Shown: piece after piece, positions 18,330 through 19,687 of the stretch
Layout: each line of letters opens with the position of its first letter
Position numbering within the stretch: the first letter of the stretch is position 1
Origin: Synechococcus sp. MEDNS5
GTDB lineage: Bacteria > Cyanobacteriota > Cyanobacteriia > PCC-6307 > Cyanobiaceae
Direction: 5' to 3'
Length of the DNA: 64,000 nucleotides
NCBI RefSeq assembly: GCF_014279875.1
Contig: NZ_CP047952.1
Coordinates: 2,232,001-2,296,000 of the forward strand
Position numbers and translations under genes: made by a program
Notes under the pieces: generated by a model
What the model was told of the DNA's origin: nothing
The model's database searches: none
What the model saw: the letters and a program-made list of their open reading frames with translations, nothing else

Positions 18330-19034
18330 ATGGGCCGAACCTACTTCCGCAGGACTGCCTTAGCGGCCACCGCCCTGGGGCTGGCCGGTCTGGGTGCAGG
18401 AGTTCCTGGCTTGAGCCGGGCTTTGTTCGACAGTCGGCCTCTGCAACAGGAACGCTTTGCGATCCTAGCCCAGGCCGTGGGTGACAGCCGCTGGAAACTG
18501 CTGGTGCTGGAACAGATCAAGGCCCGTCCTTTGTGTTGGGAAGAGCGCAGGGACGGTCTGATGAAACCTTCTTTGAATGATTTCGACTTCAGCGGGATCT
18601 GCAGCCGCTATCTCGACAGCAATGGCTATTCCCTGCGCACGGGAGGCACGGATTCCGACAAACGCTTTCGCCTGAAGCTGGAGCAGAACCGCGATGCACT
18701 GATGCTGCAAGCCATGGATCCAGTGAGGGGAGACAGCACGGTTGTGGCACGAGCCACTCGGGTGCGGCGGGACAAGAATGCATTCGTGAAACTGACCCTG
18801 GAGCCAGGGTGGACTCTGGAGCGTCGGGCCTACCAGGGCCGCACGCTGAGCCATGTGTATTTCGCCAATTCCAAGCCGATGCCCACGCTCATGGCCTCGA
18901 GTCGGGGCAGCAACCGCCAGAGCCGCAGCTTCTCAGCGAATCTGCCCAGCGCTCCAGGACTGCCTCAGGCAGGAGGCAGGGGCCAGGGAAGGCGGGGACC
19001 GATCCGACTGGAAGTGATTCCCTACCGTCCCTGA
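18330..19034 (+). CDS. DUF3747 exported protein
   Basis: This 234-residue protein opens with RRTALAATALGLAGLGAG, a signal peptide with a twin-arginine-like start. The cyanobacterial DUF3747 pattern follows: FDSRPLQQERFAILA, LLVLEQI, CW, DFSGICSRYLDSNGYSLRTGG and the late GWTLERRAYQGRTLSHVYFAN. The family is confined to cyanobacteria as far as I know and has no established function. A Gly/Arg/Gln-rich low-complexity stretch precedes the last ten residues. ATG at 18330 starts the signal peptide; the longer open frame upstream is a shadow of rnhA. The transcript probably continues into the structured region ending at the terminator near 19200. Confidence 0.85.
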   Translation: MGRTYFRRTALAATALGLAGLGAGVPGLSRALFDSRPLQQERFAILAQAVGDSRWKLLVLEQIKARPLCWEERRDGLMKPSLNDFDFSGICSRYLDSNGYSLRTGGTDSDKRFRLKLEQNRDALMLQAMDPVRGDSTVVARATRVRRDKNAFVKLTLEPGWTLERRAYQGRTLSHVYFANSKPMPTLMASSRGSNRQSRSFSANLPSAPGLPQAGGRGQGRRGPIRLEVIPYRP

Positions 19035-19080
19035 CGCGGGGACAGTTGAGGGAGCGACCTCCGCGAGCAAGACACAGCTG

Positions 19081-19201
19081 GGATCACTTCTTAAGTTGCA
19101 TTCGTGTGAGGAGTGCTAAGCGCCTCTTCAGGGTCGAAACAAGGACAGACTCCTGCAATGCGTTTCACTTCTGAGCTCTGCCTTTGGCAGGGCTTTTTTT
19201 T
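19081..19201 (+). ncRNA. Candidate structured RNA with Yfr1-complementary loop
   Basis: This 120-base stretch after the DUF3747 gene ends in a strong terminator. GTGTGAGGAGT at 19104-19114 is the exact complement of the ultraconserved 11-base loop of the cyanobacterial sRNA Yfr1. Two short helices frame it: GCATT (19098-19102) with AATGC (19157-19161), and GGAGT (19110-19114) with ACTCC (19149-19153). Part of the complement therefore sits in an asymmetric internal loop. It may be a separate sRNA or the 3' UTR of the DUF3747 mRNA. No promoter is assigned. Confidence 0.35.
19174..19201 (+). terminator. Rho-independent terminator
   Basis: A 9-bp stem (AGCTCTGCC / GGCAGGGCT, one G-T pair) with a TTT loop is followed by eight T. 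It ends the plus-strand transcript that contains the DUF3747 gene and the candidate RNA. Confidence 0.88.
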
Positions 19202-19205
19202 GCGA

Positions 19206-19233
19206 CAACAAAAAACCGACCCTCGGGTCGGTT
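19206..19233 (-). terminator. Rho-independent terminator of the rpl unit
   Basis: Read on the minus strand, AACCGACCC pairs with GGGTCGGTT across a 2-base gap (effectively a tetraloop) and is followed by TTTTTTGTTG. It lies about 60 bases beyond the rplL stop and is back to back with the plus-strand terminator. Confidence 0.88.
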
Positions 19234-19294: not shown

Positions 19295-19687
19295 TCACTT
19301 GAGGGTGACCTTTCCGCCCACTTCTTCGATGGCCTTCTTAAGGGCTTCGGCTTCGTCCTTGGACACGCCTTCCTTGATGGCCTTGGGTGCAGCCTCGACC
19401 ATGGCCTTGGCATCACCAAGACCCAGGCCAGTGGCCTCACGCACAGCCTTGAGGACTTTGATCTTGGCTGAAGCTTCAAAGCTCTCCAGCACAACATCAA
19501 ATTCGGTTTTCTCTTCAGCAACCTCGCCACCGCCAGCGCCAGCAGCGCCAGGAGCGGCCATCACCACACCAGCAGATGCGGCAGCGGACACACCGAAAGC
19601 CTCCTCGATCTGCTTGACAAGCTCGGAAGCCTCAAGCAGCGAAAGAGTTTTCAGTGATTCGAGAATTTCGTCGGTTTTTGTAGACAT
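19295..19687 (-). CDS. rplL: 50S ribosomal protein L7/L12
   Basis: This is the acidic stalk protein that recruits translation GTPases. The N-terminal dimerisation helices (about 1-35), the Ala/Gly-rich hinge (about 37-55) and the C-terminal factor-binding domain with [20 protein letters not shown] are all present. Length is 130 residues. It lies 47 bases after rplJ and is the last gene before the terminator. Confidence 0.97.

Follow-up and report, generated by a model that had tools for sequence, protein, structure and literature searches.

The window, as we call the whole 64,000-nt stretch of DNA analysed, contains a short intergenic region in which a small RNA gene follows the gene of a DUF3747 protein and faces rplL and then rplJ, which lie downstream in convergent orientation. 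The features of this region are:

18330..19034, + strand: gene of a DUF3747 protein (Pfam PF12565, E 4.3e-53), upstream neighbour
19041..19056, + strand: upstream conserved box, made up of GACAGTT (19041-19047) and GAGCG (19052-19056); it lies past the stop codon of the DUF3747 gene and ahead of the promoter
19092..19097, + strand: predicted -10 element TAAGTT, based on TANNNT conservation in the genus
19104..19201, + strand: Yfr2 (Cyano-1, RF01701) sRNA, predicted 98-nt transcript, both ends being placed by means of the promoter and the terminator
19104..19114, + strand: 5' Yfr1-pairing motif GUGUGAGGAGU, exact complement of ACUCCUCACAC
19129..19155, + strand: hairpin 1, CAGGGUC / GAC-u-CCUG with the 12-nt loop GAAACAAGGACA, based on the fold and compensatory changes
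19173..19201, + strand: intrinsic terminator of the sRNA, a stem with a T run and compensatory changes
19214..19233, - strand: terminator-like stem of the convergent rplJ-rplL operon, from the terminator scan
19295..19687, - strand: rplL (ribosomal protein L7/L12; Pfam PF00542 and PF16320), convergent neighbour and synteny marker

GACAGTT immediately follows the stop codon of the DUF3747 gene and precedes the predicted start of the sRNA by more than 50 bases; it is identical in all 25 aligned copies from the genus, and GAGCG is found in 23 of them (it is absent from L069 and L070). A TANNNT element ending 5-9 nt before GTGAGG is likewise present in 23 of the 25 (exceptions: L099 and L102), and a consensus scan reported no promoter of the TTGACA/TATAAT (sigma-70) type at the sRNA. 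The transcript had been proposed to end in a strong terminator, and 19173-19201 does form a stem of 10 pairs (6 of them G-C) with a T run; only 12 bases separate it from the terminator of the rplL operon. The possibility that the RNA derives from the 3'-UTR of the DUF3747 gene is not favoured, since a -10-like box precedes the motif (23/25 genus copies) and a DUF3747 homologue is not always upstream (53 of the 80 listed loci of the pattern search described below).

The original prediction singled out 11 bases at 19104-19114 as a perfect complement of a stretch of Yfr1. The match is exact, and GTGTGAGGAGT on the + strand is its sole occurrence on either strand of the window; the chance odds of "a few percent" given at the time agree with our shuffling, in which 6 of 100 dinucleotide-preserving shuffles of the window contained at least one match. 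Each strand of the complete 2.44-Mb genome has a single occurrence of the Yfr1 11-mer: one lies in the Yfr1 gene (C1:1480886), and the antisense one is the site at 19104-19114. It is however its conservation, rather than its rarity, that makes the match meaningful: among 55 copies of this RNA linked to rplL (25 from the genus, 24 from outside it and 6 from the genus g5), the motif is invariant in alignment columns 3-8, 10 and 11, and at position 9 nine copies have G for A, where G can still pair with the U of Yfr1. On the other hand, 18 of the 55 rplL-linked copies and all 79 other copies compared differ from the exact 11-mer.

Rfam family RF01701 (Cyano-1) matches positions 19100-19169 on the + strand with 49.3 bits (gathering score: 41), and this is the single match when the whole window is scanned against Rfam 15 at gathering thresholds. 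The alignment runs end to end (model positions 1-69 of 69) with the motif at its 5' end, and the conserved 5' motif of the family is complementary to Yfr1 at 11 of 11 bases. Cyano-1 appears among the candidate RNAs in a table published in 2010 (PMC2864571), and Yfr2 RNAs are described as characterized by the Cyano-1 motif in a paper on Limnospira (PMC8400943). Because of the RF01701 match and this description of Yfr2, we identify 19104-19114 as the predicted 5' end of an sRNA of the Yfr2 family. The novelty that the original prediction implied is thus absent, as a known family had gone unrecognised.

The predicted RNA (19104-19201) folds with -38.6 kcal/mol (z-score -2.82). According to Voss 2009 (PMC2662882), Yfr2 RNAs have a long stem that carries a 12-nt loop and is interrupted by a bulge (position -4, counted from the loop), and their first 8-13 nt are predicted to be single-stranded. 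Hairpin 1 conforms to the description of the stem: its loop has 12 nt, and three pairs away from it one base is bulged out, at 19151. In the 55 rplL-linked copies the consensus structure of hairpin and terminator is paired in 97.2% of cells, compared with 35-55% for slid versions. Both sides change in 13 of its 18 pairs, giving 96 such cells vs a shuffled mean of 21.4; in hairpin 1 this applies to 5 of 9 pairs (the other 4 never vary) and in the terminator helix to 8 of 9. The loop is for the most part as invariant as the 5' motif. The motif was originally described as framed by two helices; it stands at the predicted 5' end, with both helices downstream of it. It is unpaired in the consensus fold, but in the single-sequence fold of the window copy its positions 6-11 (19109-19114) pair with 19167-19172, which would mask part of the motif in cis. 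The window copy resembles the Yfr2-Yfr5 family in its model match, the loop with the one-base bulge, the 5' motif, the terminator and a predicted length of 98 nt (89-95 nt in MED4).

The partner RNA is encoded in the same genome. Yfr1 (RF01116), which is a partner and not a relative of Yfr2, has one gene at C1:1480866-1480922 (71.6 bits), and the sole sense copy of ACTCCTCACAC in the genome lies within it. Yfr1 is an RNA of 54-57 nt in which the complementary stretch had been taken for a hairpin loop; it is instead an unpaired stretch between two stem-loops (PMC2190773). Other sRNAs, such as Yfr10, share the Yfr1 motif, and Yfr10 of MED4 is likewise pulled down by Yfr2, whereas a scan for exact matches found no Yfr10-type sRNA with the 11-mer in this genome, the only sense copy being that of Yfr1. 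Both RNAs are widespread: in the genus a Yfr1 gene is present in 31 of 31 genomes, as is Cyano-1 when matches with E of 0.001 or less are counted (in 29 genomes they exceed the cut-off), and among 250 genomes of the taxonomic family Cyano-1 was found in 245 and RF01116 Yfr1 in 234. The 11-mer is present in all 30 genus Yfr1 loci checked (of 31) and intact in 20 of 20 Yfr1 genes read from the family. When the strain's own Yfr2 and Yfr1 are cofolded, the 11-bp duplex forms and the energy improves on that of the two RNAs folded separately by 11.4 kcal/mol; shuffled Yfr2 gains 4.15 on average. The free-energy evidence by itself is weak, because the fold hides motif positions 6-11 and because 9 of 500 dinucleotide shuffles reach the observed gain.

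In the 16 family genomes without an RF01116 match the 11-mer occurs 1 to 3 times each, compared with 0 to 3 times for the reversed control; lone occurrences of the 11-mer therefore mean little without context. Judged by eye, the 11-mer lies in most of these genomes inside what appears to be another small-RNA gene, in several of them in a Yfr10-like hairpin. All 16 genomes hold the 11-mer, and we found among them no clean case of decay of the Yfr2 motif after loss of Yfr1. Genome G043 has an apparent degenerate Yfr1, and in G036 and G066 one 11-mer match each looks unrelated. All seven genomes of the genus g5 belong to this RF01116-negative set, and a near-identical sequence ...GGTGACTCGGCACTCCTCACACGAGGCACAAGAGG... 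is common to them (near position 1501 of loci L274, L278, L279, L287, L288, L289 and L294), preceded by a CATAAT box and followed by a terminator-like end, GGGAGCTTTT; judging from these features it is probably the gene of a diverged Yfr1 or of a Yfr10-like RNA that escapes the Rfam model.

According to Lambrecht et al. (PMC6778093), yfr2 genes "occur at unconserved loci". The window copy, in contrast, has a conserved place beside rplL. Among the 108 copies found in the genus, 25 are convergent to rplL, in 25 of the 31 genomes, and the other 83 have no rplL within flanks of 700 to 1500 bases. The number of Yfr2 matches per genus genome ranges from 1 to 9 (9 in G001, 8 in G007 and 6 in G021), with never more than one rplL-linked copy per genome. 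If only genomes at least 90% complete are considered (n = 24), G005 alone is without an rplL-linked copy: it has no Cyano-1 match in the 800 bases after rplL and three matches elsewhere. The corresponding region (G005:C1:1809687-1810487) contains the end of a DUF3747-like frame and then a short spacer with, by eye, a terminator-like stem.

Outside the genus the RNA was found in 24 of 39 regions downstream of rplL, hand-picked among the rplL matches listed (two of the 24 are below the gathering score), and is absent from 15, which comprise all sampled genomes of g2, g7, g9, g14, g22, g29 and g32 and one of two of g17. All seven g5 genomes have a Yfr2 copy that adjoins rplL and reads GTGTGAGGAG, six of these copies having been identified by Cyano-1 and the one in G118 by the antisense 11-mer. 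This last RNA (L291:1501-1620), Yfr2-like and convergent to rplL, was missed by the Cyano-1 model and is not among the 55 copies. The motif is thus conserved in the same place in relatives both within and beyond the genus, a check that the original prediction had called for.

A scan of named genomes with a pattern modelled on the rplL-linked copies returned 110 stretches, and we examined the 80 listed ones. rplL is convergent within 600 nt in 73 of these 80 and at 829 nt in one more; of the remaining six, four belong to records titled Scytolyngbya, a filamentous cyanobacterium, Synechococcales S06 and Prochloraceae, a fifth is truncated by the end of its contig, and the sixth (L412) has no rplL within its examined stretch. 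Since the pattern demands the long motif, this result shows that RNAs of this kind are found beside rplL and does not apply to most yfr2 genes. No linkage to rplL was found outside the family among the 24 best-scoring loci of the phylum search (L315-L338), three of which are family members. Comparison of positions 19030-19215 with 50,697 phage records gave no match, nor did the exact pattern match any of the viral contigs. A literature search, with most subscription papers and the 2009 RNA Biol family paper outside its scope, returned no paper joining yfr2 and rplL.

We compared the 55 rplL-linked copies with the other copies from the genus; of the 108 genus copies, 104 entered the comparison of energies and motifs (79 of them not linked to rplL), L103 and L109 being left out for want of a recognised motif; L055 and L110, although also left out, both carry GTGAGGAG. 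The Yfr1 of the window strain was used in computing the cofold energies of all copies. The exact 11-mer is present in 37 of 55 rplL-linked vs none of the 79 other copies, and U (T) at position 11 in 55/55 vs 9/79. GTGTGAGGGGT is found in seven rplL-linked copies, and 67 of the 79 others have GTGAGGAG. The pairing proposed for MED4 Yfr2 used GUGUGUAGGAG and is possible only with a bulge and a mismatch (PMC2518516), whereas the window copy offers a full 11-nt complement.

The two sets also differ upstream. Only two Yfr2 copies were detected in this genome. The second lies at C1:906496-906561(-) (L002:1501-1566(-)) and scores 38.7 bits, less than the gathering score; its motif reads GTGTGAGGAAC, and a perfect ACTGGCACTGTGACAGT palindrome (0 mismatches) stands at -39. 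The palindrome, with up to two mismatches, accompanies 32 of the 79 other copies, in 31 cases at -36 to -39. This palindrome, as read from our alignments, is presumably CGRE1, the site published for the GntR regulator PMM1637. A near-palindrome, ACTGNCACNGTGNCAGT (up to two mismatches), was found in 11 of the 55 rplL-linked copies, always at -75 and with its right half falling where the conserved upstream box lies. The best match of the window copy has 3 mismatches in 14 positions at -76, compared with 4 or more in the 55 shuffled upstream regions of the set; its left half is the region of the upstream stop codon, and none of the other rplL-linked copies has exactly this score. In GACAGTT, one half of the palindrome seen in other genera may have survived.

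In the rplL-linked copies the motif may be partly masked within the RNA. The mean unpaired probability of positions 8-10 is 0.08-0.22 in these copies vs 0.64-0.72 in the others, that of position 11 being about equal (0.34 and 0.31), and in the fold of the window copy only GUGUG is left free. The candidate masking helix is paired in 72.7% of cells, and at one of its pairs both bases change (A9-U74 to G-C, in 8 sequences). The cells with changes on both sides exceed all 500 shuffles, but there is no such excess in the number of pairs, which 497 of the 500 reach. A helix slid by -2 pairs in slightly more cells (73.9%), and the covariation score of one slid by -1 is slightly higher (0.159 vs 0.151). 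The sequences counted are moreover related to each other. The masking is thus weakly supported, because the pair number is not above that of the shuffles, two slid controls are as good on one measure each and the sequences are not independent of descent.

We consider it very likely that the locus is a yfr2 gene whose own promoter drives an RNA of about 98 nt, the 5' end of which traps Yfr1. Transcription would yield an RNA beginning with GUGUGAGGAGU, followed by a single hairpin with the conserved 12-nt loop and by the intrinsic terminator. Its 5' end would pair with ACUCCUCACAC of Yfr1, the same stretch that Yfr1 uses on its target mRNAs, and would thereby remove Yfr1 from them; the free 5' GUGUG could serve as a toehold from which Yfr1 opens the rest of the motif. 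Pairing with the motif common to Yfr1, Yfr10, Yfr12 and Yfr18 was proposed for Yfr2, Yfr4 and Yfr5 by Steglich et al. 2008 (PMC2518516). In Prochlorococcus MED4 Yfr2 pulls down Yfr1 (Lambrecht et al. 2019, PMC6778093), and the same paper reports that Yfr2 relieves the repression of a GFP reporter by Yfr1 in E. coli and that it is cleaved by RNase E, with Yfr1 blocking the cleavage in vitro. Yfr2 of Nostoc binds Yfr1 in gel shifts (PMC6974561). According to the abstract of PMC6778093, Yfr1 and Yfr2 are nearly universal among cyanobacteria and influence carbon and nitrogen metabolism. The published pairing, pull-down, reporter relief and gel shift make the trapping of Yfr1 the best reading, with actions of Yfr2 in its own right also possible. 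Pairing and antagonism are published for other species and predicted for the window strain, where the copy is presumably expressed and would work as elsewhere. The suggestion of a target or sponge for Yfr1 is therefore supported, the locus being a member of the Yfr2 family; it is right but not new, because the pairing of Yfr2 with Yfr1 and their antagonism had been published.

The chief alternative, doubtful but a serious one, is that Yfr2 acts mainly on mRNA targets of its own, for instance via the loop GAAACAAGGA, and that Yfr1 mainly neutralises it. Since the peaks of the MED4 pull-down were assigned to 302 mRNAs (PMC6778093), Yfr1 is possibly not the main partner; the near invariance of the loop in the 55 copies points the same way, as do Lambrecht et al. 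(PMC6778093), who name pairing with Yfr1/10 and cleavage by RNase E as two ways in which Yfr2 can be neutralised. Against this, the 5' motif is kept, and in the reporter test it was Yfr2 that undid the action of Yfr1. The two views are compatible. Trapping of Yfr1 may also take a special form here: the rplL-linked Yfr2 could be a distinct, vertically inherited branch, a 9-11 nt Yfr1 trap half folded in cis, with a GUGUG toehold, a promoter layout unlike that of the other copies (the GACAGTT half-site standing far upstream) and a role of its own. We put this forward as a speculation that is rather unlikely to hold; if true, genomes would carry a constant, buffered Yfr1 trap beside a ribosomal operon in addition to separate inducible copies on a GntR-type site.

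Readings in which trapping plays no part fare much worse. The RNA could mainly be a 3' boundary element, serving as paired terminators that separate the DUF3747 gene from the convergent rplL operon or else as an antisense buffer, its motif being incidental; the closely spaced convergent terminators and the conserved place beside rplL might suggest this. The motif and the loop are however conserved far beyond the needs of a terminator, most genus copies (83/108) lack a neighbouring rplL, and the near-complete G005 has three matches elsewhere and none in the rplL spacer, which renders such a role very improbable. Slightly less probable still is an action of GAGGAG on the ribosome, as a Shine-Dalgarno decoy or as the leader of a small peptide. 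AGGAG does resemble the Shine-Dalgarno core complementary to the anti-SD sequence, but by eye no ATG, GTG or TTG follows it at the usual 5-10 bases in the window, for which reason we rejected this candidate; the length of the stretch after the motif also varies among copies, and the conserved stretch reaches 5' as far as GUG, beyond what pairing with the anti-SD requires. As to a functionless chance 11-mer, the 6% of window shuffles with a match would allow it, but the conservation at this location in 25 of the 31 genomes of the genus and in others outside it, together with the match to a curated Rfam family, makes it hardly credible, and we rejected it on the ground of that conservation.

The object is thus a known RNA family in a known role, and this copy is notable mainly for the place beside rplL that it has kept in many relatives. 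What is added to the published picture seems modest: the conserved place, the longer complement to Yfr1 in the rplL-linked branch and a possible layout with a masked motif and a toehold. In view of the scattered loci described in the literature, the fixed copy on the side of rplL can serve as a reference gene for comparing Yfr2 across strains. The two copies of this genome form a clean pair in which an rplL-linked RNA can be compared with another in regulation and in the strength of Yfr1 binding. A match to the Glutamine-II riboswitch (L002:606-660) was observed on the same strand as the second copy, about 840 bases further on.
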